From NCBI GenBank assembly GCA_023623175.1, contig JAMNXU010000038.1:1-64000 (forward strand): a stretch of DNA of 64,000 nt, in the 5' to 3' direction. Of the stretch, positions 14,157 to 57,841 are shown one piece after another; position 1 is the stretch's first letter, and every line of letters starts with the position of its first letter. The notes under the pieces were generated by a model. The model saw only the letters and a program-made list of their open reading frames with translations, had not been told where the DNA came from and ran no database searches. This DNA is from Bacillota bacterium (GTDB taxonomy: Bacteria; Bacillota; Clostridia; Acetivibrionales; JAMNXU01). The translations under genes were made by a program, and so were the position numbers.

Positions 14157-15320
14157 TCAGGCATAAAGCCGGTCAACGGCTTCATTTGCCCTGTTCCAGC
14201 ATTCGATGACGCTGTCCAGCCTGTCGTCGCCGCATGAATACTGAAGCAGCAACAGGCTCCTGCCATCTTTTCTTGAAGCTTTCAACAGTTCAGCAAAGCT
14301 GTTTGTCAGGGATTCGTCAGTGCTGTCATCAATTACGGGGCCGACTGCTCCATAGTATATTTTTCCGCGTTCGGCGCAATCCTTGAGTACCCGCATGATG
14401 TCATTCTTTTCGGGATTGCCGAAATTAATGCCGTAAGCTTTTTCCGATTTCATTACCGCGTCGTACAGGTGGGGATTTGAGCCGCAATAATGTATATAGC
14501 CTCCGCCGAAGCGGTCGAGTATCCTGTTCATGTATGGCACGACGAATTCTTCTATATGGTCTTTTGAAAGAAGCGTGGACGTGTCTTCGCTGATCTTGAT
14601 TCCGCCCATGGACCGTGGGATTACGAGCTCATTGTAGTGGGCAATCATTTTTTCGGATCGGGGCATAACCTTCAGGCATTCGTCCATGCCCATGAAAATG
14701 GCTTCACAGCTGAGCTCGAGCAGGTGATGGACAAAACGGGGATCGTCATACAAATCATAGAATATGTCGTCGCCGTAAACTATGTGGGCAGTGTCGAACG
14801 CTCCCTGCAGATCCATGGGGAAAACAAGGCAACCGGTGCCTTCAAGCTTTTCAGCCATGTAGGCCATATGCTCAAGACCGGCCTTGAATTCATCGCTGAG
14901 CTTTATATCTTCCGGTCCCATTTTTGACAGTTCTTCTTTCGACTTATGCTCCAGTACCCAGGGCATTTTGTCTTCAAAGAGCTCCTGCCTGACACCGAGA
15001 AGTGTGGGGAAAATGCCGCATCCCATATTGGCCCTGACTGACGGAACCGATCCGACCGGCCCCCTGCTGTTGGCTGCAGCCACGGTCAGCGCGCCGTTTA
15101 GCTGGTCGGTGAGCATTTTCTCGGAATCATAATGGGTTTCCTTGGTATTGTACGAAGGCATGCCTTCGACGGGCGCGGATTTTGTTCTGCAATGCAGAAG
15201 AAGAGGTTGGGCTGCCGGTTTTTCGCCGTTCCAGAGGCGGAGCTGCATTTCGGCCGATGCTTCAAAGGCTTCCCTGTGGGATCTGAGAATCTCGATTGCC
15301 TTGCCTGCGTATTTATTCAT
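14157..15320 (-). CDS. uroporphyrinogen decarboxylase-superfamily (MtaA-like) protein, HxCG type
   Basis: TIM-barrel protein of 387 residues. The start is ATG 15320, with AGGAG eight bases upstream; an in-frame extension has no binding site. YIHYCG near residue 290 gives an H-x-C pair that in corrinoid methyltransferases (MtaA, MtbA, CmuA) binds zinc. QYSCGDD close to the C terminus could supply a third ligand. It lacks the Arg-rich N terminus of true HemE, and no haem genes are nearby, so I do not call it HemE. It is one of five superfamily members in this window. A methyl transfer role is inferred from the family only. Confidence 0.85.
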   Translation of the reverse strand: MNKYAGKAIEILRSHREAFEASAEMQLRLWNGEKPAAQPLLLHCRTKSAPVEGMPSYNTKETHYDSEKMLTDQLNGALTVAAANSRGPVGSVPSVRANMGCGIFPTLLGVRQELFEDKMPWVLEHKSKEELSKMGPEDIKLSDEFKAGLEHMAYMAEKLEGTGCLVFPMDLQGAFDTAHIVYGDDIFYDLYDDPRFVHHLLELSCEAIFMGMDECLKVMPRSEKMIAHYNELVIPRSMGGIKISEDTSTLLSKDHIEEFVVPYMNRILDRFGGGYIHYCGSNPHLYDAVMKSEKAYGINFGNPEKNDIMRVLKDCAERGKIYYGAVGPVIDDSTDESLTNSFAELLKASRKDGRSLLLLQYSCGDDRLDSVIECWNRANEAVDRLYA

Positions 15321-15578
15321 AATAACTGCTCCTTTGCGTTTGATTTTGGTACTACTTCCTTGAGTATGGTTTTCAATGAATGTTATATATGGCAAACCGC
15401 ACAGGCTGATTTGATCATAATAACCGGTGGCGGTATGCGCAAGCATGGTGCCTGCAAAATAATACGGGTGATTCATGGCAACCTGGTGTCAAATCAGCAA
15501 ACAATAAAAACCAATAACATTTCTAATTATAAACTTACTGTGTCACATCGTAAAGAGAAGGGAAGAGTTCCGGACCTG

Positions 15579-46236: not shown

Positions 46237-47820
46237 GTGAAAAAAAGTCTTCTGCGTTTCTTGGCGCTTTTGACGGCGCTGCTTTTGATTGTGGGTGCAG
46301 CGGCCGCATGCGGCAAGAAAAACCCGTCGGACGATAAAGATATAGAAGCGTCCGATGACTATGACGATCGCGATGATTCCGATGATTGGGATGACGACTA
46401 CACCGATGATGAAGACTCTTCGGATGACGAAGATGAAGACAGGGATTCCGAAGATACAGACGATGAAACCGGCACCGATGAAGACAGCAACACTCCCGGA
46501 AACAATACCGGAAATAATGGAAGCACCGGAAAACCCAACAACCAGGGATCAACTGGGAAAAACACAACGGGAAAAACCACCACGGGAACCTCTTCCAACA
46601 ACAATAAGCCCACAAAGGTAGATTTGAAGGGCTACACTGTTAAGATAGCCGCATGGTGGAACCTCGATCCCAAGGTACCGACCAACGTTTACTATCAGCA
46701 GGCAGTTCAGCGTGAAAAGGAAGTAAGGGAGAAATATAACGTCAAGTTCCAGTTCGTCAACGTTCCCGGACAGGGAATCAGGGACAGGCTTCCTGCGAGC
46801 GTTCTCGCCGGAGAACCTCTCGGTGACATCGTACGTTGCCGTTCCGGATGGGTACTGCCCGTATTTGCAGGAAGAGGTATTGTAGAGCCTGCTGACAAGT
46901 ACTTCGACGTAAGCGATCCCCTGTGGAATCCTTACATTATTCAGCAGTCGATGTTCAAGGGCCATCCGATGGGCGTAAACCATCAGCAGATGACATCCTA
47001 TTATCGCCTGTTCTACAACAGGAGCATGATGCAGAGACTGGGTCTTGCTGATCCTCAGACTCTCGTAGCTTCCAAGCAGTGGACATGGGCCAAGTTTGAA
47101 GAATACCTTTCAAAGATAGCCCAGGACACTGATAACGATGGTAAATTAGACATTTACGGCGTTTCAGGATTCCCGTGGGTTGCTGTAGTGGCATCCAACG
47201 GCGGGAAGGTTGTTTCTGATGTCAACGGCAAGGACGTTTGGACTCTCAACAAGCCTGAAGCCGTAGAAGCTCTTAAATGGTACAGCAAGCTGCAGAGCCA
47301 GGGCTATATAGGCGGAGGCCAGGCTGACTTTGTTGCAGGCAAATCCGGATTCTATACAGACTATGGCACAGGATTTAAAGCCAACATGAAGGACAAGTGG
47401 GGAGTACTGCCGTTCCCGATCGGACCCAAGGCAAAAGACTATGCAAGCTGGTGGGATGAAGTACACCTCATGACCATACCGAAAAACAGCAAATATCCGA
47501 AGGAAGTCGCAGCTATCTGGACAGACCTGAGCCGCTGGTATTCGAACGCACCCAGCAGGGAAAAGATGCACAGGGATGTTCTGGAGAACATGTATGACGA
47601 TCCGAGAGATGTAGAAATGGATGTATTCCTTGCTTCCAAGTTCTGGCTTGACAAGTACTTTGCATACAACGAAATTATGAATGAACTCTGGCCCGGCGGC
47701 GGACAGGATATAGAAAACGTGATTGACGGCTCGGCCGGTAAGACCATTGACCAGTGGATGGCTGAAAAATCAGGCAAGATGCAGAATATAATCGACCAGC
47801 TCTGGGCAACCTTCAAATAA
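46237..47820 (+). CDS. extracellular solute-binding lipoprotein (family 1, sugar ABC type) with acidic linker
   Basis: Lipoprotein of 527 residues. The signal peptide ends at VGAAAAC. Residues 28-80 are almost all Asp/Glu/Ser, followed by an Asn/Thr/Gly linker to about 125. The binding domain starts at VDLKGYTVKIAAWWNLDPK and has DTDNDGKLDIYGV, a calcium-loop-like motif. It should capture a saccharide for ABC import, but no permease gene is nearby. The start is GTG 46237, which overlaps an ATG-TGA mini-ORF at 46235. A paralog follows. A terminator closes the gene. Confidence 0.9.
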   Translation: MKKSLLRFLALLTALLLIVGAAAACGKKNPSDDKDIEASDDYDDRDDSDDWDDDYTDDEDSSDDEDEDRDSEDTDDETGTDEDSNTPGNNTGNNGSTGKPNNQGSTGKNTTGKTTTGTSSNNNKPTKVDLKGYTVKIAAWWNLDPKVPTNVYYQQAVQREKEVREKYNVKFQFVNVPGQGIRDRLPASVLAGEPLGDIVRCRSGWVLPVFAGRGIVEPADKYFDVSDPLWNPYIIQQSMFKGHPMGVNHQQMTSYYRLFYNRSMMQRLGLADPQTLVASKQWTWAKFEEYLSKIAQDTDNDGKLDIYGVSGFPWVAVVASNGGKVVSDVNGKDVWTLNKPEAVEALKWYSKLQSQGYIGGGQADFVAGKSGFYTDYGTGFKANMKDKWGVLPFPIGPKAKDYASWWDEVHLMTIPKNSKYPKEVAAIWTDLSRWYSNAPSREKMHRDVLENMYDDPRDVEMDVFLASKFWLDKYFAYNEIMNELWPGGGQDIENVIDGSAGKTIDQWMAEKSGKMQNIIDQLWATFK

Positions 47821-47980: not shown

Positions 47981-49588
47981 CTGAAGGAAAAGGGTACCCG
48001 TATTGTTTTGTTTTTAATAATTGTTTTTTTTGCTCTTGGTTTGGCTGCCGCATGCCACAGGGATTTGCCAGCACGAAATGACAGGAGCGCTCTGGGAAAA
48101 GATTTGAAAGAAGGAAGTCTTACAGACCCATTGAATGGCGAAACCGAACCGGAAGAAGCGCCGGTTGGCGATACTTCTTCCGGCGATTTTTCCACGGGTG
48201 TAGCTTTCGAAGGTGAATCGGGAGAAGAAGAAAAGTCCAGGGAATATGTGATGAGCGAAGAGGTGGCAGCGGCAAAGGGAGAAGGGACTGCGGAAAAAGG
48301 CGCGACACCTGTACCCGGAAAAGTTACTGAAAAGGAAAAGAACTCCGAAAAGCAACCAGGGGAAGAGGCAAGGATTGATTTAAAAGGCTATACCGTTAAG
48401 ATTGCGGCATGGTGGAACCTCGATCCCAAGTCCCCGTCCAACGTTTACTATGTAAAAGCGGTTGAGAGGGAAAAAGAAGTTCGAAAAAAATACAATGTTA
48501 AGATAAAATATATCAGCGTACCGGGGCAGGACCTGAAGGACAAGATTGTTTCAAGCGTCATTGCCGGAGACCCGATTGGCGACATCTGCCGCTGCCGTTC
48601 CGGATGGGTGCTTCCCACGCTGGCGGGAATGGGGTACATAGAACCCGCGGAAAAGTATTTCGACATAAGCGATCCGTTATGGAATCCCTACGTACTAAAA
48701 CAGGCGATGTACAAGGGAAAGGTGATGGGCGTAGATCACGGCCCGCTGTCGTCCTACGCGTGCATGCTTTATAACAGGAGCATGATCCAGAGGCTTGGTC
48801 TCAGGGATCCACAGGAGCTGGTATATAGAAAAGAGTGGACCTGGGCAAAATTTGAGGAATATGTAAAAGCAATTGCAAAAGATACTGACAATGACGGAAA
48901 ACTTGACATATACGGGACCAACCTCGTCACTTTTCAGTCCGCGGTAGCGTCCAACGGAGGAAGGATTGTTTCCGATATTAACGGCCGGGATTTCTTTACG
49001 TTAAACAACCCTGAAGCCGTTGAGGCCTTGAAATGGGTGCAGTATATCAATGGCCTGGGCGTGGCGGGAGGAACGATGGCTGATTTTGCCATGGGGAATA
49101 TGGGATTTTACTGGTGGTGGAATTACGAATGGGGTTTCAAAAGCTCGATGAAGGATAAATGGGGTATCCTGCCGTGTCCCATGGGTCCCCGAGCCAAGGA
49201 TTACGCCGCCTGGTGGGACGAAGTGCACCTTATGTGCATTCCCGCATACAGTAAATACCCGAAGGAAACCGCGGCAATTTGGACGGACTTATGCCGCTGG
49301 TACCCTGGTGTTTCCGGGCGTGACCAAATGTACGAGGAAATGCTGGAAAACCAGTACATGGACAAAAATGACATTGAAATGGCAAAGTTTATATCAACCA
49401 AGTTCTGGCTTGACAAATATTTCGCGTACCCCGACATTGTTGACGACATGTATCCCTGGCCGGACAACGGCACGGGAATTGAGGCCATATTAAGGGGCTC
49501 CGGGACCATGAGCATAGAACAATGGCTGGCCCGGAAATCGGAAATGTACCAGAGTACGATCAACCGCTTGTGGAAAATGTTTGAATAA
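47981..49588 (+). CDS. extracellular solute-binding lipoprotein (paralog), probable CTG start
   Basis: Protein of 535 residues if started at CTG 47981, which has GGAGG eight bases upstream. That start restores a normal signal peptide: KEKGTR, a hydrophobic run, then lipobox GLAAAC. The nearest conventional start (TTG 48008) would remove the positive charges and has no binding site; an in-frame TGA at 47975 excludes anything longer. A Glu/Gly/Ser-rich linker runs to about 128. The binding domain IDLKGYTVKIAAWWNLDPK is clearly paralogous to that of the gene before it (RCRSGWVLP and DTDNDGKLDIYG shared). The linkers are unrelated. Confidence 0.88.
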   Translation: MKEKGTRIVLFLIIVFFALGLAAACHRDLPARNDRSALGKDLKEGSLTDPLNGETEPEEAPVGDTSSGDFSTGVAFEGESGEEEKSREYVMSEEVAAAKGEGTAEKGATPVPGKVTEKEKNSEKQPGEEARIDLKGYTVKIAAWWNLDPKSPSNVYYVKAVEREKEVRKKYNVKIKYISVPGQDLKDKIVSSVIAGDPIGDICRCRSGWVLPTLAGMGYIEPAEKYFDISDPLWNPYVLKQAMYKGKVMGVDHGPLSSYACMLYNRSMIQRLGLRDPQELVYRKEWTWAKFEEYVKAIAKDTDNDGKLDIYGTNLVTFQSAVASNGGRIVSDINGRDFFTLNNPEAVEALKWVQYINGLGVAGGTMADFAMGNMGFYWWWNYEWGFKSSMKDKWGILPCPMGPRAKDYAAWWDEVHLMCIPAYSKYPKETAAIWTDLCRWYPGVSGRDQMYEEMLENQYMDKNDIEMAKFISTKFWLDKYFAYPDIVDDMYPWPDNGTGIEAILRGSGTMSIEQWLARKSEMYQSTINRLWKMFE

Positions 49589-49767
49589 ACAACGTGATGA
49601 ATTTGGAAAAACAAATTAATGAAAAGCATGTACAAATAAGCATCCTGAAGATATGGAGCATATTTTTTGATACTGGAAGATGAGCTTGACAGGAATCATC
49701 TGATGAAGCTGATTCGTAACAGATTCGTAAAGACCTGAACCATAAACATCCCGGGGGAATATGCGAC

Positions 49768-50688
49768 ATGGAGTTCTTGGCTACACTGGAGAAAGTTTCA
49801 GCATTGTTCATACTTATACTCGTCGGCTGTTTAATAAGCAAACTGAAGGTGACAGACAGGGGTTTTACCAGGCCGCTGTCAAACTTCCTTTTTTACGTAT
49901 CCCTTCCTTCGCTTATTATTTCGTCAATGTATTTTCCGTTTTCACCGAAACTGCTGGTTGACAGCCTGCGCCTTATACTGATCGGCATTGCGGTGATGGC
50001 CGGCTCAACGCTGTTGTCCGCTTTTTTGTCCAGGAAATTGAGCGATGATTACCGCGCAAGAAATGTATATGAATTTTCGATGATATTTTCCAACTTCGCT
50101 TTTATGGGTCTGCCGGTAACCGGTGCAATTTTCGGGCAGGAAGGCATTTTCCTCGCATCGGTTTTCAGCGTTCCCATTTATGTATGGGTAAACAGTTACG
50201 GAATCATGCTGATGCAAAGGGACAGCAAGGGATGGAGGGGCATAAGGCTCTCCAATTTGCTAAATCCTGCGCTGATAGCTATAGTCGTCGGATTTTCCCT
50301 GTTTGTGCTGTCCATTGAGCTTCCTGAATTTATTTTCAGCCCGTTAAGCATGCTCGGAAGCACCACGACGCCGCTGTCCATGGTGCTTGCCGGAATGCTG
50401 CTTGTCCAGGCGGGCTGGAAGGACATGTTCGGGAATTACAAAGTGTATATCGTGGCTTTTGTCCGGCTCATAGGCTTTCCGCTAATGGTCATGCTGCTTG
50501 CGGGATTTTTTGTGGACGACCCGCTTCTTGTGGGCGTTCCCGTGATTATTACAGCCATGCCGGTGGCCGCCAACGTTTCTATACTTTCCGAAAAATTCGG
50601 CGGCGAATCCGGCCTCAGCGCCCGGTGCGTGTGCATTACCACTTTCTTGTCAATAATAACCGTGCCTTTTATAAGCTGGCTTTTATAA
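49768..50688 (+). CDS. AEC-family (auxin efflux carrier-type) transporter
   Basis: Membrane protein of 306 residues with ten helices in two five-helix repeats. LVGCLISKLKVTDRGF, LSNFLFYVSLPSLII and MIFSNFAFMGLPVTGAIFG in the first half, and TTPLSMVLAGMLL and AMPVAANVSILSEKFGG in the second, match the family. Members export or take up carboxylates such as malate. GGGGG lies upstream of the ATG. It converges on a UroD-like gene. Confidence 0.9.
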   Translation: MEFLATLEKVSALFILILVGCLISKLKVTDRGFTRPLSNFLFYVSLPSLIISSMYFPFSPKLLVDSLRLILIGIAVMAGSTLLSAFLSRKLSDDYRARNVYEFSMIFSNFAFMGLPVTGAIFGQEGIFLASVFSVPIYVWVNSYGIMLMQRDSKGWRGIRLSNLLNPALIAIVVGFSLFVLSIELPEFIFSPLSMLGSTTTPLSMVLAGMLLVQAGWKDMFGNYKVYIVAFVRLIGFPLMVMLLAGFFVDDPLLVGVPVIITAMPVAANVSILSEKFGGESGLSARCVCITTFLSIITVPFISWLL

Positions 50689-50723
50689 CCGGATGACGCG
50701 GATAACCATGTCGAGACCTGCCA

Positions 50724-51842
50724 CTATCTGCCGGCGGCGAGTGACGCTATTTTTTCAGCCTGCTGCCGGTTCTTGGCGGAAACGGTCAGGAAGAAGGATT
50801 CTCCAGGCAGAACGGAAAACAGCTTTTTCATTTGGTCGATGTCGTCAATGAAGCCGTTAAGTATGATTTTCCTGCCGTTTTCAATGATTTTCCCGTACAG
50901 AGGGTAGTGCATTTCCAGGTAGTGAGGCTGGCCTGGCATCGGAACCCACTGAATTGCATGAAGGTTTTCTATGCTCAGGAGCAGGTCGAGATGCGGCAGT
51001 TCCCCGGGACCGTCGAGGTGGTAGATTCCCTTTTCGAACCAGCTCATTTCTTTTTTCAGGGATGGCAGGACCAATTCTTCAAACATGGCAGGCGATATCA
51101 TTGCTGAAAAATCGCATTGGGAGGGGTATTGGGCCCTTGAAGAAAGCAGCGACATCCAGGTGGTGTGATATCCGTTGTTATACTTGTCAAGTATTTCAAA
51201 CAATTCGTCATGGACTTTTTTCCACAAAACCTGTATGGAATCAATGGCTTTATTCATTTCTTCAGGATAATCCACCACATCGTAAAGCAGGACTTCAGTT
51301 CTCCTCAGCGATGCGAGGATATCGACCACTCCGCCGAGGTCCAGCATGCTGACAACCGCATGGTCCTTCAGCCTTGACGCAACAATTCTGACTGTTTCCA
51401 CGGCCGTTTGGTAATACCTGCTGACCTTTTTCGCAAGCGAATTTATATCTTCCCAGTCCATGGGTTTGTCAAGCTCGAACCATACCGTTTCACCCGTGAA
51501 CTTGGCAAAATTTGTTATGAATGCGGCAAGACAGCCGGGACCCAGGTTCGTGAAGTAGCTCGGGAACCCAGCGCCGTAGTATTCTTCGCATTGGAAGTAT
51601 ATTTCCATCACATCCATGGCTTCTCCGATATATTTCAAGTCCCCTTCTGCGAAAGCGCGTTCAAAGGCTGACGCCAGCACCCAGTCCGGATCGTCGGGCA
51701 TCCAGTCTTTTTTTATTTTTGCGGCCTTTTCGTCAAAGGCGGACTTGTCAAAATACGCGCAAAATATCAGCGGATTTTTGTTTGTGCCTTTCCACCATTC
51801 CTCGTACATTGGACCAACGTTTTGCAGATGTTTTGCCAACAT
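50724..51842 (-). CDS. UroD/MtaA-superfamily protein, HLDG type (copy A)
   Basis: Protein of 372 residues from ATG 51842, where GGGAGGG lies upstream. It has SYFTNLGPGCLAAFI near 95 and a barrel region ending in a strand YHLDGPGELPHLDLLL (about 255). At that place corrinoid methyltransferases have H-x-C-G; here Cys is Asp, so the classical zinc site is not formed. MSLLSSRAQYPSQCDFSAMISP is a second shared block. It is closely similar to the gene at 53923-55026 over its whole length. No haem-pathway neighbours. Substrate unknown; a sugar-derived compound is possible because such genes often occur in carbohydrate loci. Confidence 0.85.
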   Translation of the reverse strand: MLAKHLQNVGPMYEEWWKGTNKNPLIFCAYFDKSAFDEKAAKIKKDWMPDDPDWVLASAFERAFAEGDLKYIGEAMDVMEIYFQCEEYYGAGFPSYFTNLGPGCLAAFITNFAKFTGETVWFELDKPMDWEDINSLAKKVSRYYQTAVETVRIVASRLKDHAVVSMLDLGGVVDILASLRRTEVLLYDVVDYPEEMNKAIDSIQVLWKKVHDELFEILDKYNNGYHTTWMSLLSSRAQYPSQCDFSAMISPAMFEELVLPSLKKEMSWFEKGIYHLDGPGELPHLDLLLSIENLHAIQWVPMPGQPHYLEMHYPLYGKIIENGRKIILNGFIDDIDQMKKLFSVLPGESFFLTVSAKNRQQAEKIASLAAGR

Positions 51843-52197
51843 AGAAAACCCTCCCGGTCTGATTCTAACTTGCACATGTAAAACCTTTACAGTTGTAAAG
51901 GTAAAATATAAAAAGCCGCAAGCATGGATTAAAATACTAAAATGAAATTAAAAGATATTAAGCTTAATTCTAACATTTAATGCCAGGCAATTCAATTGAG
52001 TATAAAAAATAAATCAGGAAGTTTGGCGAGGGTAAAATAAAAATTTTCATAATCGAAAGGCAAGGGGAAAAGGTTGTTAGGAGTGCAAAAAAAAAATCAT
52101 GAAATGATATACATCTCAGAATGAAAAACATCATGGTATAAAATAAGAATCAAAGAGTGAGAGTAAATATCCGGAATCAGAAAAACACAATCGGATA
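51843..52197. other. AT-rich intergenic region upstream of UroD-like copy A
   Basis: No gene is supportable. It lies upstream of copy A and downstream of the DUF438 gene. A-rich tracts and short direct repeats are visible, continuing into the array at 52198-52254. Confidence 0.5.
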
Positions 52198-52254
52198 AGA
52201 GAAACTCAATAGAAAAAAAGAAACTCAACAGAAAAAGAGAAACTCTAAATAAAA
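52198..52254 (+). repeat. three 19 bp tandem copies (GAAACTCAA-type)
   Basis: GAAACTCAA starts at 52201 and 52220, and GAAACTCTA at 52239, an exact 19 bp period with A-rich sequence between. It lies in the gap beyond the DUF438 terminator. Confidence 0.85.
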
Positions 52255-52302
52255 AGCGGAACACCGCGGGTTGGGAGAAAACGCCAATGAAAAGGTTTAT
52301 TG

Positions 52303-52339
52303 AGTAAAAAAAGAGGCTGCTAATCAAGCAGCCTCTTTT
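52303..52339 (-). terminator. intrinsic terminator built into the DUF438 gene end
   Basis: On the minus strand the stem AAAAGAGGCTGC with GCAGCCTCTTTT (12 bp) runs into a T-run. The upstream arm encodes the last codons (KRLL), and the loop contains the TAG stop codon. Confidence 0.92.
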
Positions 52340-53546
52340 CTCCTTCAAGTTTTTTAATGCCGGTTATGTTTTGAGAGACTTCAAGGGTTCCAACATATTC
52401 GCCCTGGGCGTTTCTGACTGCGAAATACCTGATATAGATGAACATATCCTTCATTTGAATCCAGAATTCAGCCACGTCCCTTTTTCCGGCTTTAAAATCG
52501 TTTATGATTTTTTCAACCACGTGGACGCTTGCCGGAGGATGACAGTTCTGGACCTTCCTGCCTATGACAGCCTGGGTCCTGTGGAATATGCGTTCCTTGC
52601 CCTGCGAGAAATACTTTACAGTATCGTCCTTGTCCACGAAGGTGATATCCACCGGGAGATGGTTGAAAATGAGGTTGACTTCTTCCAGCGTCAGAATGCC
52701 GGTATCGAATTTGAGGTATCCCTGGGGAGTATAACTGTAAGCTTTTTCCTTTTCGGCCTTGGGTTCAGATTTACCGGGCTGCCACATGAATTCTTCTTCA
52801 ACGAGGCAGAAACCGATTTGCGAGCTTTGATCGCGGATCTGCCCCCACTCGTCTTCGGTCAGAAGATCAAGGCACATGGGCAGCATGATGTTTTCTTCCT
52901 TGAAGATCATGGAATCCACCATGGCGTTTAATTCATTGACGGCCTCCACCACCTTTTTCACTTCTTCAGCGGATTGGGCCTCGGAAGCCATCTTCAATGT
53001 ATCCTTCAGCTTCAGCCGGATATCGTCGTGGATGCCCCACATTACGGACGAAGGACCCGTTACGCCGTATTTCTCAAGAAACGGGAAAAGAAGATTTTCT
53101 TTTCTAAGGTAGTGTTTATCTATTTCTCCCAACTGATTTAACGCGATCCTGAGATCGGGGAGCTTCGAACTGTCATATCCCGATTGCTCCAGCTTTTCAA
53201 GAGCAGGTTTTATTTTTGTGTTGATCAGCTCTTCAATGGCGCGGTTTTCTTTCTTGAACATGTACACGGGATGGCCGGGAATGGTCTCCTGCCTGACCTG
53301 CTGCTGTTCCAGCGAGTCGAGAAACACCTCGGTATGGACGTCGCAGAGGCGTTTAATCTCTTCGACCGGCAAACCCTCATCGATAAGCGCCTGCTCCAGC
53401 TGAGATATTTCCGTCGCCGTCAGATTTTGAATCACTTTGCTGAATCTTTCCTTTACGTCCTCCACCCTTGCGCCGTCGTGCAGCTCCCTGATAAGCTGCT
53501 TCATGGTTTTTTGCCGTTCTTCCCGATTATTGATGAATTCACTCAT
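52320..53546 (-). CDS. DUF438 protein: hemerythrin-like + PAS domains
   Basis: Cytoplasmic protein of 408 residues. An N-terminal DUF438 helical domain (about 8-75) is followed by a hemerythrin-like four-helix region (about 95-245). KHYLRKENLLFPFLEKYG, WGIHDDIRLKLKD and FKEENIMLPMCLDLL carry the His/Glu residues that would bind a di-iron centre. A C-terminal PAS domain (about 280-400) has LPVDITFVDKDDTVKYFSQG and GTLEVSQNI. These features suggest sensing of oxygen, NO or redox state; there is no output domain. It starts three bases after the DUF1858 stop, forming a two-gene operon. Confidence 0.9.
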   Translation of the reverse strand: MSEFINNREERQKTMKQLIRELHDGARVEDVKERFSKVIQNLTATEISQLEQALIDEGLPVEEIKRLCDVHTEVFLDSLEQQQVRQETIPGHPVYMFKKENRAIEELINTKIKPALEKLEQSGYDSSKLPDLRIALNQLGEIDKHYLRKENLLFPFLEKYGVTGPSSVMWGIHDDIRLKLKDTLKMASEAQSAEEVKKVVEAVNELNAMVDSMIFKEENIMLPMCLDLLTEDEWGQIRDQSSQIGFCLVEEEFMWQPGKSEPKAEKEKAYSYTPQGYLKFDTGILTLEEVNLIFNHLPVDITFVDKDDTVKYFSQGKERIFHRTQAVIGRKVQNCHPPASVHVVEKIINDFKAGKRDVAEFWIQMKDMFIYIRYFAVRNAQGEYVGTLEVSQNITGIKKLEGEKRLLD

Positions 53547-53549
53547 TCC

Positions 53550-53777
53550 TTAACCTCCTTTGACAGTGTACCCATGTTCTTCAAGGGTCTTCACTACCTT
53601 TTCAAGTTCTATTCCCTTCATGACGCAGCCTTTTGGCAATGTCATGACTCTGCCGGCGGTATTCCTTACAACTGGGTTTGTTATGTCGCGAAATCCCAGA
53701 TCCTTGAGAATATCCACCAATTCAGGGAATTCTGAAGTAAGTTCGTAAACAGTTTTGGACAGGTCAACGGTTTTCAT
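53550..53777 (-). CDS. DUF1858-domain small protein
   Basis: Protein of 75 residues, essentially one DUF1858 domain: DLSKTVYELTSEFPELVDIL followed by KDLGFRDITNPVVRNTAGR. These domains usually precede or accompany DUF438/hemerythrin proteins, as here, and resemble the N-terminal helix-turn module of ScdA-type di-iron repair proteins. GGGGG lies before ATG 53777. Role inferred as partner of the next gene in redox or NO response. Confidence 0.87.
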   Translation of the reverse strand: MKTVDLSKTVYELTSEFPELVDILKDLGFRDITNPVVRNTAGRVMTLPKGCVMKGIELEKVVKTLEEHGYTVKGG

Positions 53778-53922
53778 GATTACCCCCTTTTTCCACATGC
53801 AACAAGCTTATTTTTCCTGAAAAACCATATTGTATGCATCGGCTTGTGCAGGTTTTACACTATAATTTTTAACATCAGCCTTTTTTACACCGGCTTTTAT
53901 CAGTTTTTGAGAACCGTCCCCC

Positions 53923-55026
53923 TTATGCGAGCGAGGCTATTCTTTCGGCTTCATCGCGGCTATCGCAGCTGATTGTGAGGAAGAACGCTTCCCTGGGAAA
54001 ATGCCGGAACAGTTTTTTAACTGCTTCGCAATCATTTATATACCCATTTAGAATCACTTTCTTTCCACTATTTATTATTTTTTTATACAGGTCATAGTGG
54101 CTTTCGCTGTGGTGAGGTTCGGACGGCATGGGTACCCATTGAACGGCATGGAGGTTTTCGATGCTTAAAATCAGGTCAAGATGTGGTATCTGGCCCGGGC
54201 CGTCAAGATGGTAAACGCCCTTGTCAAACCAGCTCATTTCTTTTTTCAGCGACGGGAGAATGAATTTTTCAAACATGGTGGGGGAAATCATCGCGGCAAA
54301 ATCGTTTTGGGAGGGGTAATAGGGCCTGTCCGACAGAATTTCCATCCAGCTCGTGTAATAGCCGTTGTTGGTTTGCTGCAATATTTGCAGTACATCATCA
54401 TGGAATTTTTTCCATATCTTCTGTATCGATTCGATGGCCTTTAAAGATTCCCCGGGGTAATCAACAAGATCAAACAGCAGGTTTTCAGTCCTTCTCAGCG
54501 CCGCCAGAACATCGGACACTCCGCCTAAATCGGGCATGCTGACCACTGCAATGTCCTGAAGCCTCGCTCCGACTTTTTTGACTACTTTCAGCGCAAAATC
54601 CGCAAAGGTTGACGACGGGGCGTTAAATATATCCTCCCACTCCATGGGTTTTTCCAGCTCAAACCAGACCGTGTCGTTATAGAATCTTGCGTAACTGCTT
54701 ATAACAGCGGCGACGCACGCGGCACCAAGACGCGTAAAATAGCTCGGGAATCCTGCACCGGAATAATGATGGCAACTAAAATAAACCTCGGACATATCAA
54801 GGGCTTCATCGACATATCCCATATTTCCGTCTTCCATGGCCTTAAGCAGCGACTGGGCAAGCAGCCACCTGTGTTCACGGTGCATCCAGCTTTTCCTGAT
54901 CTTGGCCGATTTTTCATTGTACGCCAGGTTGTCAAAGTACGAGCAGTATATTACGGCATTTTTGTTTTTACCTGCCCACCAGTCCAAATATTGCCGCGAA
55001 ACGTTTTTAAGAATATCGGAAAGCAT
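53923..55026 (-). CDS. UroD/MtaA-superfamily protein, HLDG type (copy B)
   Basis: Protein of 367 residues from ATG 55026, with GGAGGACG upstream. It is a close paralog of the gene at 50724-51842: both have a WW(K/A)GxNKN start, SYFTRLGAACVAAVI-like and HLDGPG(E/Q)-PHLDL motifs, and end with FFLT plus a basic helix. The motif is again HLDG, not HxCG. The two copies flank the DUF1858/DUF438 operon on the same strand, which looks like a segmental duplication or an inserted module. Catalytic role unknown. Confidence 0.85.
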   Translation of the reverse strand: MLSDILKNVSRQYLDWWAGKNKNAVIYCSYFDNLAYNEKSAKIRKSWMHREHRWLLAQSLLKAMEDGNMGYVDEALDMSEVYFSCHHYSGAGFPSYFTRLGAACVAAVISSYARFYNDTVWFELEKPMEWEDIFNAPSSTFADFALKVVKKVGARLQDIAVVSMPDLGGVSDVLAALRRTENLLFDLVDYPGESLKAIESIQKIWKKFHDDVLQILQQTNNGYYTSWMEILSDRPYYPSQNDFAAMISPTMFEKFILPSLKKEMSWFDKGVYHLDGPGQIPHLDLILSIENLHAVQWVPMPSEPHHSESHYDLYKKIINSGKKVILNGYINDCEAVKKLFRHFPREAFFLTISCDSRDEAERIASLA

Positions 55027-55436
55027 ATCGTCCTCCGCTTTAACGTTAATAAAATTTGTTGTAAATATTATACATTGATGGGTCTGCAAAATTCCATATA
55101 CAAAAATCCCGAATGTATAAAAAATGTTTTTCTTTTAAATAATGCGAAGTTTATTCTTAAATCGATTCAGTTTGTGAGCGGAATCCCCGGTGAACAACAT
55201 GATGCACATTAAAAAAATGATTTCGTGCGGGAAATCAAGCGGTTATTCGGAATATGATGATTTTTATATTTAATATAGTTAAATATTTTGTTAAATATAG
55301 TGAAATTCAGGGGAATATACGTTAAAATATAAAAAACAATTTCTGAAAACATATAAAACATATGGGATAAATATGGATTTTCTTGTTTTGTAAGAAAACT
55401 TGTATTAAAATTAACGGATAATAGCGTTAATCAGGC
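55027..55436. other. AT-rich divergent region between UroD-like copy B and metA
   Basis: No gene is supportable. TTAAATAT-type direct repeats occur near 55270-55310. I looked for a SAM (S-box) riboswitch or T-box ahead of metA and saw none. Confidence 0.5.
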
Positions 55437-55543
55437 AATAAACGAAGTCGCATGGTTTTGAACAATAAACGGAGTCGCAAGGTTATGAGCTTAAACCGGC
55501 CGGCATGGTTATGAAAAATAAATGAGCTCGCAGGTTTATGAGA
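55437..55543 (+). repeat. four tandem copies of a 26-27 bp unit upstream of metA
   Basis: Copies at 55437-55463, 55464-55490, 55491-55516 and 55517-55543 abut exactly. Each carries AATAAA(C/T)G or a variant at the left, (G/C)TCGCA in the middle and GGTTATGA or GGTTTATGA at the right. The first two are the closest pair. The array ends about 10 bp before the metA ribosome binding site. Confidence 0.92.
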
Positions 55544-55567
55544 TTTCTGAAACAGGAGGAACGACAA

Positions 55568-56518
55568 ATGCCTATTAAAATTCCCGTGGATCTGCCCGCA
55601 ACTTCAGTGCTTAACCGTGAAAACATTTTTGTAATGGACGAAAACAGAGCATACCACCAGGATATACGTCCGCTGAGAATAGCCATTTTAAACCTGATGC
55701 CGACAAAAATAGAAACTGAGATACAACTGCTCAGGCTGCTGGGAAATTCACCGCTCCAGGTTGAAATATGCCTGCTGCACCCAAGCAGCCATAAATCAAA
55801 AAACACGCCACAGGAACACTTGCTGAGTTTTTACAAGACCTTTGACGAAATAAAGCACATGCGCTTTGATGGTCTCATAATTACAGGCGCTCCCGTTGAA
55901 CAGCTTGAATTTGATCAGGTGACTTACTGGAATGAGCTTTGCGAAATCATGGACTGGAGCGTCCGTAATGTTTACTCGACGTTCCATATATGCTGGGGAG
56001 CCCAGGCCGGGCTGTACCATCATTACGGCGTGCCCAAGTATCCCCTGGAGAAAAAGATGTTCGGGGTTTTCCCCCATAAGGTCAGCAAACTCTATACAAA
56101 ACTGCTCAGGGGTTTTGACGACGTGTTTTATGCGCCCCATTCGCGTCATACCGAGGTGAGGAAGAGCGATATTGAAAAGGTCGATGAGCTTGAAATCCTC
56201 TCAGAGTCGGAAGAATGCGGCGTCTATATAGTTGTTTCCAAGAACGGCCGACAGGTCTTTGTCACGGGCCATCCCGAATACGATCCTCTTACGCTGAAAA
56301 AGGAATATGACCGCGATGTTTCGAGGGGACTTGATATAGATATTCCCGTCAATTATTTCCCGGACAATGACCCCACAAAACCCCCAATTGTCACCTGGAG
56401 AGGGCATGCGAACCTGCTTTATTCCAACTGGCTGAATTATTACGTTTACCAGGAAACTCCCTATGATCTCAGCCAACTGGACTGCTATCCGTTTTTCCCT
56501 GCGCGCCAGGACAGGTAA
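55568..56518 (+). CDS. metA: homoserine O-acetyltransferase (MetA family)
   Basis: Cytoplasmic enzyme of 316 residues for the first committed step of methionine synthesis from homoserine. Nucleophile Cys142 lies in [11 protein letters not shown], catalytic His and Glu in VTGHPEYD (about 235-241). Residue 111 is Glu ([10 protein letters not shown]). In the MetA family Glu111 selects acetyl-CoA, while Gly111, as in E. coli, selects succinyl-CoA. I therefore call the acetyltransferase. AGGAGG lies upstream of ATG 55568; the frame open from 55538 lacks one. Monocistronic with its own terminator. Confidence 0.94.
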
Positions 56519-56599
56519 TATGCGTTTTCGCGCGTCTCTGAATTTTGGCATCATTGATTGAAGCTGTTTGAGGCGGATTCACAGGAAATCCGGACCCAA

Positions 56600-56630
56600 A
56601 ACACCAGGTGCAATGCCCTGGTGTTTTTTA
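56600..56630 (+). terminator. terminator of metA
   Basis: AACACCAGG pairs with CCTGGTGTT across TGCAATGC, followed by a run of T. Confidence 0.9.
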
Positions 56631-56773
56631 GTAAAGCGCGGTGAAGCGCGCTGGAAAGTATCGCGGATTGTGCCAAAACATCATAAAGTGCACAGAAAAG
56701 TGTTGTAAAAAAGTTTTGAAGTATGATAAAGTTTCATTAAGCATACAAGCATTATCATGGGGGGTGGCAATAT

Positions 56774-57841
56774 ATGTCCGGGATGACATCTTATGAAAGG
56801 TTTAAAAGAATGTATGAACACAGGGAAGCAGACCGTATTCCCATAATAGACGACCCATGGCGCACGACGATTGAACGCTGGCGCAGGGAAGGCATGCCGG
56901 AGGGAATGCATTTTGCGGATTATTTCGGCATAGACTGGGTTCCCAAGATATATGTTGACAATTCACCACGCTATGAAGAGAAAGTAATTGAGGAAACTGA
57001 CACCTACACCATTTACACCACAAAATGGGGCGCGACTTTGAAACAGTGGAAGCATGCCACATCTACCCCCGAGTTCCTGGATTTTATAATTACAAGTCCG
57101 GACAAATGGAAGGAAGCGAAAGAAAGGATGGTCCCGACACGGGACAGGATAGACTGGAGTTATCTTGAAAAGAACTACAAAAAATGGAGACAGCAGGGTT
57201 TGTGGATTGAAGCCGAATTGTGGTTCGGCTTTGACGTGACCCACTCGTGGACCGTAGGCACCGAGACCCTGCTTATTGCGCTCGTGGAAGAGCCGGAATG
57301 GTGCATTGACATGTTCAATCACTTCCTTGACGTGAACATCGCGCTGCTCGACATGGTCTGGGATGCGGGATATACATTTGACGCCGTATACTGGCCCGAT
57401 GACATGGGATACAAGGACAGGCAGTTCTTTTCGGTGAACATGTACAGGGAGCTCTTGAAACCCATACACAAGAAAGCCATTGACTGGGCTCACAGCAAGG
57501 GCGTTAAGACTCACCTGCACTCTTGCGGAAACATTAACCCGTTTGTGCCTGAACTTATTGAAATAGGCCTGGATGCGCTCAACCCGCTGGAGGTCAAGGC
57601 CGGGATGAACCCCGTCGAGCTTAAACATAAATACGGGAAAGACCTCGTTTTCCACGGCGGAATCAATGCGGTATTGTGGAACGACGTGGAAGCTATAACC
57701 GAAGAAATGAGGAAAGTGATTCCCGTGATGAAAGAGGGCGGAGGGTACATCTTTTCATCAGACCATTCGGTGCCTGACAGCGTAAGCCTTGAGAATTTCA
57801 GGTACATTACCGATCTGGCGAAGAAGCTTGGAAGTTACTGA
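56774..57841 (+). CDS. UroD/MtaA-superfamily protein, HxCG type
   Basis: Protein of 355 residues with the methyltransferase-like features of the superfamily. The N terminus MTSYERFKRMYEHREADRIP is typical. YWPDDMGYKDRQFFS lies near 218, and THLHSCG near 255 supplies the H-x-C pair. GGYIFSSDHSVPDSVSLENF occupies the place of the third zinc ligand, with Asp/His instead of Cys. GGGGG precedes the ATG. It stands alone between two terminators, so it has its own promoter. Corrinoid methyl transfer or an unknown lyase role are both possible. Confidence 0.87.
   Translation: MSGMTSYERFKRMYEHREADRIPIIDDPWRTTIERWRREGMPEGMHFADYFGIDWVPKIYVDNSPRYEEKVIEETDTYTIYTTKWGATLKQWKHATSTPEFLDFIITSPDKWKEAKERMVPTRDRIDWSYLEKNYKKWRQQGLWIEAELWFGFDVTHSWTVGTETLLIALVEEPEWCIDMFNHFLDVNIALLDMVWDAGYTFDAVYWPDDMGYKDRQFFSVNMYRELLKPIHKKAIDWAHSKGVKTHLHSCGNINPFVPELIEIGLDALNPLEVKAGMNPVELKHKYGKDLVFHGGINAVLWNDVEAITEEMRKVIPVMKEGGGYIFSSDHSVPDSVSLENFRYITDLAKKLGSY

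Follow-up and report, generated by a model that had tools for sequence, protein, structure and literature searches.

In the window analysed here, a stretch of 64,000 nucleotides (positions 1 to 64,000 of contig JAMNXU010000038.1) from a Bacillota bacterium, two closely related genes of the uroporphyrinogen decarboxylase (UroD)/MtaA superfamily flank a DUF1858 gene and a DUF438-hemerythrin-PAS gene. Our analysis suggests that the enzyme gene was probably duplicated within this lineage and that an independent sensor pair lies between the two copies, the four genes being neighbours and not a functional unit. All four were confirmed on the minus strand, between positions 50724 and 55026. Read along that strand they encode W2, a UroD-superfamily protein of 367 amino acids (53923-55026); a DUF1858 protein of 82 amino acids as called (53550-53798, with a later ATG possible at 53777), whose gene lies 3 bp upstream of the next; a DUF438-hemerythrin(HHE)-PAS_10 protein of 408 amino acids (52320-53546); and W1, of 372 amino acids (50724-51842, ATG start at 51842). 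W1 and W2 both belong to an HxDG (YHLDGPG) subfamily. The first-pass annotation had described two close paralogs around a DUF1858/hemerythrin-PAS pair on one strand, and the coordinates, the Pfam matches and the W1/W2 identity of 59% bear this description out. Other features were noted in the surroundings. A 27-nt repeat is present in three copies at 55436-55542, just upstream of a metA-like gene, and two tandem proteins (46237-47820 and 48008-49588) look alike by eye, the second matching an extracellular solute-binding protein in Pfam and the first giving no such match. A search of positions 49500-57000 against Rfam returned no matches.

W1 matched the Pfam URO-D profile below threshold (14.7 bits for a cut-off of 23.9). 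No URO-D match was obtained for W2, for which Pfam gave only sub-cut-off matches, to DUF463 (23.3 bits for a cut-off of 25) and DPC2. Neither protein had a Pfam match above cut-off or any NCBIfam match whatever. The AlphaFold2 model of W1 (mean pLDDT 95.7) displayed the TIM-barrel fold of UroD and MtaA. It aligned along its full length with MtaA (4AY7; Z 18.2, 293 aligned positions, 4.0 Å) and, in what amounts to a tie, with uroporphyrinogen decarboxylases, also over the full length (best Z 17.9). A PDB sequence search with W1 produced no matches, and a profile built from a 75-row family alignment produced eight, none of them significant. A contig scan seeded with W1 alone yielded ten pattern matches and no relatives. 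According to record titles, the HxDG family is spread over many bacterial phyla and several archaea. A literature search on 'trimethylamine corrinoid protein 2', which we take to be a label used for this family, found nothing. Judged from sequence and model together, W1 and W2 are TIM-barrel enzymes of the UroD/MtaA superfamily and belong to a widespread, uncharacterised subfamily.

Zinc methyltransferases of the MtaA/MtbA type bind their metal through the ligands HxC...C, and the twins had been singled out as lacking the cysteine of this motif. Both W1 and W2 read YHLDGPG. A third nearby UroD-superfamily gene (56774-57841, plus strand), which is MtaA-like, belongs to another subfamily and is considered here for context only, reads HSCGN. 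Because a profile comparison of the W1/W2 family with this neighbour was not significant (probability 2.8%, with the motifs set two residues apart), HLDG is assigned to the place of HxC by motif and position only. In the 75-row family alignment, which includes the twins, H275, D277, G278 and H284 are invariant, as are Trp121, Asp168, Asp174, Asp244, Gln298 and Trp299; no cysteine is invariant in it, and the HxC...C set of zinc ligands was not found. This alignment leaves out seven of the 80 scanned loci; HxDG is nonetheless present in all 80, the top-ranking of 331 relatives in a contig scan biased towards the motif by a seed pattern that contained HLDG. It was also found in 33/33 relatives extracted from whole-protein searches. 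These came from simple longest-ORF calls in which ORFs with HxDG were kept, the chosen ORFs overlapping the search matches; weak hits and locus L014 were left out of this set and of the tree. One weak hit left out (L015, E 1.1e-11) reads HACG. On the sequences compared, H-x-D-G-(x5)-H is an invariant signature of the subfamily, standing by position in place of an H-x-C zinc motif. HxDG being common to the whole family, loss of a zinc site is not something that sets the W1/W2 locus apart: the twins do carry Asp in place of Cys, by position, but they are not special in doing so.

Over 369 columns W1 and W2 share 59% identity, and a tree of 35 sequences recovered them as sisters with a support of 1.0, on a long stem. 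Searches covering 58 genomes at order level, 391 at class level and 398 at phylum level, with the bacterium's own genome among them, listed nothing else that exceeds 45% identity; the class and phylum sets are samples, searched with E cut-offs of 1e-45 and 1e-60, respectively. In the contig scan, the closest relative (the best of 331) was 41% identical. Two of the best 80 loci (L057 and L106) also have HxDG genes in tandem, without a sensor in between, and three more have a second, weak match; a tandem pair in genome G196 is probably the same locus as L057. These data argue for a lineage-specific duplication, which, taken jointly with the independence of the pair between the copies, we regard as likely. 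The first-pass annotation had proposed, as one possibility, a duplication that enclosed the operon. The sister relationship supports this as far as the twins are concerned, and does not reach the order of events around the sensor pair. The two copies differ by a dN of 0.32 and a saturated dS of 2.8, for a dN/dS of about 0.11, and appear to be under purifying selection. The absence of the zinc-motif cysteine from both copies could also be taken to mean that W1 and W2 are degenerate, inactive former zinc methyltransferases. We give this interpretation hardly any credence, as the motif is shared by the whole family and the low dN/dS, even with dS saturated, points the other way.

The two genes between the copies are well defined by their domains. 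Pfam matches above cut-off were found in the order DUF438 (E 5.7e-25), hemerythrin (1.8e-17) and PAS_10 (6.1e-29) in the larger protein, and DUF1858 (E 6.7e-20, above cut-off) in the smaller one. A DUF1858 gene immediately precedes DUF438 in 13 of the 26 other genomes of the order that contain DUF438, and at 33 of 106 DUF438 loci overall, indicating that the pair occurs on its own. The window DUF438 protein is 50-57% identical to its 26 relatives from the order, which average 70% among themselves. It has Q83 and Y95 at positions where His is conserved in 26/26 and 25/26 of these relatives, and His at position 173 where all 26 have Asp. In a tree of 107 proteins with midpoint rooting, it groups with sequences from outside its order in a six-member clade (support 0.99); none of the five other members has DUF1858 beside DUF438. 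A sister relationship with the protein of genome G207, supported at 1.0 with 67 proteins, fell to only 0.36 with 107 and was not retained. The divergence from order relatives, together with a clade outside the order, hints that the window copy may be foreign or fast-evolving. Its domains and a weak similarity to YtfE suggest, as the likeliest role for the hemerythrin-PAS protein, the sensing or buffering of NO, O2 or iron. A literature search for DUF438 together with hemerythrin found nothing, and a literature match to DUF438 proved to concern DUF4388. As for DUF1858, PMC6710368 lists a gene of this family in the NnrR regulon, and PMC6282519 describes DrpB as carrying the domain.

Transcription signals separate the sensor pair from W1. 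A strong intrinsic-terminator hairpin, which is also an inverted repeat, sits at the stop codon of DUF438, on the minus strand (52300-52348; -26.9 kcal/mol, z -6.45), is followed by a T run and precedes W1 by about 460 bp. With a terminator of this strength, W1 is probably not cotranscribed with DUF1858 and DUF438, and the sequence thus suggests that it is transcribed apart from the pair. In a pattern scan for promoters and terminators, sites were no commoner than in shuffled sequences (14 against 13.3 and 6 against 9.3). The DUF438 terminator was absent from the resulting list, probably because its stem includes the T run. Upstream of W1, a perfect 20-bp palindrome (51883-51902) may be an operator. 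The evidence for this is weak: no second good copy was found in the genome, and a reversed control pattern matched more often (8 versus 2). On the other side of the pair, W2 is separated from DUF1858 by a gap of 124-145 bp on the same strand, and a scan of this gap revealed no terminator. Read-through from W2 is therefore possible, and W2, DUF1858 and DUF438 could share a transcript that excludes W1, the sharing being a local accident of gene order. Such a transcript would be compatible with duplicated copies around an independent pair. We hold it to be possible, but somewhat improbable, since a gap of that size could house a promoter and such an order was absent from the other loci sampled.

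The arrangement had also been proposed to be a functional module in which the di-iron/PAS protein, sensing NO, O2 or iron state, would control or protect both UroD-like enzymes. The common strand and the short gap after W2, with no visible terminator, are what such a module would be expected to show; the terminator before W1 is not. We looked at co-occurrence in other genomes. DUF438 or DUF1858 was found near the UroD gene at 0/80 loci (the best 80 of 331 relatives, with flanks of up to 7 kb, many shorter at contig ends). Conversely, we inspected 106 DUF438 loci (1.3 Mb), comprising all 26 other order genomes, 40 of 61 others from the class search and 40 of 51 from the phylum search. A clear HxDG UroD gene was present within about 6-7 kb at only one of them (L238, in genome G207), while a second (L173) gave a marginal match of 16.7 bits. 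From the order-wide density of HxDG genes (21 matches in 57 genomes, weak hits with E above 1e-20 being excluded), about 0.12 cases would be expected by chance, and the probability of at least one is about 0.12. The same four-gene order was found nowhere among the 80 UroD (best of 331) and 106 DUF438 loci.

The single pairing does favour a module to some extent: G207 also has the closest DUF438 relative found (60% identity), with the HxDG UroD gene about 1.1 kb away. In its 4.7 Mb this genome has a single HxDG match, so that the coincidence would amount to roughly 0.3% (12 kb of 4.7 Mb), a figure that applies to that single genome and was reached after the fact. However, the pairing differs in order and strand from the one in the window: the UroD gene is on the opposite strand, convergent with DUF438, its product is 28% identical to W1, and a UroD gene reading HSCGD lies between the two. 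Moreover, the four other members of the DUF438 clade shared by the window and G207 (support 0.99) have no HxDG UroD gene near DUF438. As a separate observation on this locus, the HxDG and HSCGD genes (L238 3783-5927), with sugar ABC transporter-like genes ahead by eye, may form a two-UroD sugar operon. At the level of whole genomes, DUF438 was present in 8 of 13 order genomes with HxDG UroD and in 19 of 45 without (Fisher P 0.34; UroD counted at E up to 1e-30, own genome included), so that no association was apparent. Given these counts and the terminator before W1, the module proposed in the first-pass annotation did not find support, and we consider it very unlikely.

The genomic background makes neighbouring copies of such enzymes unremarkable. 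Besides W1 and W2, the 2.85-Mb genome contains 18 Pfam URO-D matches, 17 of them over cut-off, for a total of about 20 UroD-superfamily genes. Four of the URO-D matches lie on the same 67-kb contig, near 14.3 (14160-15476), 57.3, 63.7 and 64.7 kb, making six with W1 and W2. A search with PF02607, which misses corrinoid proteins without this domain, found a single corrinoid protein in the genome, on another contig. The neighbours of HxDG relatives were sampled as 88 same-strand genes at 48 of the 80 loci (best 80 of 331), the 88 being those scanned out of 106 preselected. They included other URO-D proteins (6), GH4 (4), GH42 (3-4), ABC permeases (4), class II aldolases (4), LacI (3), Peripla_BP_4 (3) and B12-binding proteins (2). 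Sugar-related families were commoner than corrinoid ones in these raw counts, which carry no background control. With some 20 UroD-superfamily genes set against one PF02607 protein, one may ask whether HxDG proteins form a large uncharacterised family that breaks down sugars or methoxy compounds with neither a corrinoid partner nor thiolate-bound zinc. We advance this idea as a speculation that is rather unlikely to hold in full.

Taken together, these observations suggest the following scenario. A gene for an HxDG enzyme of the UroD/MtaA superfamily would have been duplicated in this lineage to give W1 and W2. The DUF1858/DUF438-hemerythrin-PAS pair, common elsewhere with no UroD neighbour, sits between the copies with a terminator of its own, and its hemerythrin-PAS protein would sense or buffer NO, O2 or iron apart from the enzymes. 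From their fold, the neighbours of their relatives and the existence of zinc-free members such as CdmB, W1 and W2 are most likely methyl-transferring or related C-O/C-C cleaving enzymes. Their substrates would be small, perhaps sugar- or plant-derived, and bound inside the barrel through the invariant His and Asp residues, at a site with or without a non-thiolate metal. The bracketing arrangement itself is locally ordinary, a matter of duplication and gene order, and wider interest lies only in the uncharacterised HxDG family. Since this family is widespread and sequence searches of the solved structures gave it no significant match, a biochemical assay of a single HxDG protein would help to annotate the family as a whole.

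Comparison with known systems places each component. The window DUF1858 protein matches 2FI0 (E 1.1e-15 over 74 residues). It differs from the selenoprotein form with CxxU, whose existence is reported in PMC9312934, in having a single Cys and no CxxC. The DUF438 protein matches the DUF438-type PF0695 of Pyrococcus (3CAX) at E 1e-61 in two stretches, and is weakly similar to its distant kin YtfE/RIC (E 0.0065, below the NCBIfam cut-off). W1 has the same fold as the uroporphyrinogen decarboxylases HemE/UROD (6W2O, 1R3Y; Z 16.3-17.9 in the rows listed) at 6-11% identity; with W1 under the Pfam URO-D cut-off and W2 giving no match, neither is classed as HemE. CdmB, a UroD-superfamily methyltransferase that works without zinc according to PMC13222342, provides a zinc-free precedent for the cysteine-free site of HxDG proteins. 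CdmB/MtvB-type enzymes work with corrinoid proteins, and the match of the HxDG family profile to CdmB is not significant (E 0.96). A corrinoid protein gene alongside would be expected for an MtaA/MtbA-type enzyme; the W1/W2 contig has none by PF02607, a search that would miss corrinoid proteins of other kinds. MtaA, the methylcobamide:coenzyme M methyltransferase of Methanosarcina mazei (4AY7/4AY8), was the sole Foldseek match of W1 with E below 0.001. At about 9-10% identity, and with Asp in W1 where the HxC motif of MtaA has Cys (by position), the two proteins nevertheless share the TIM barrel over its full length (Z 18.2, 293 aligned).
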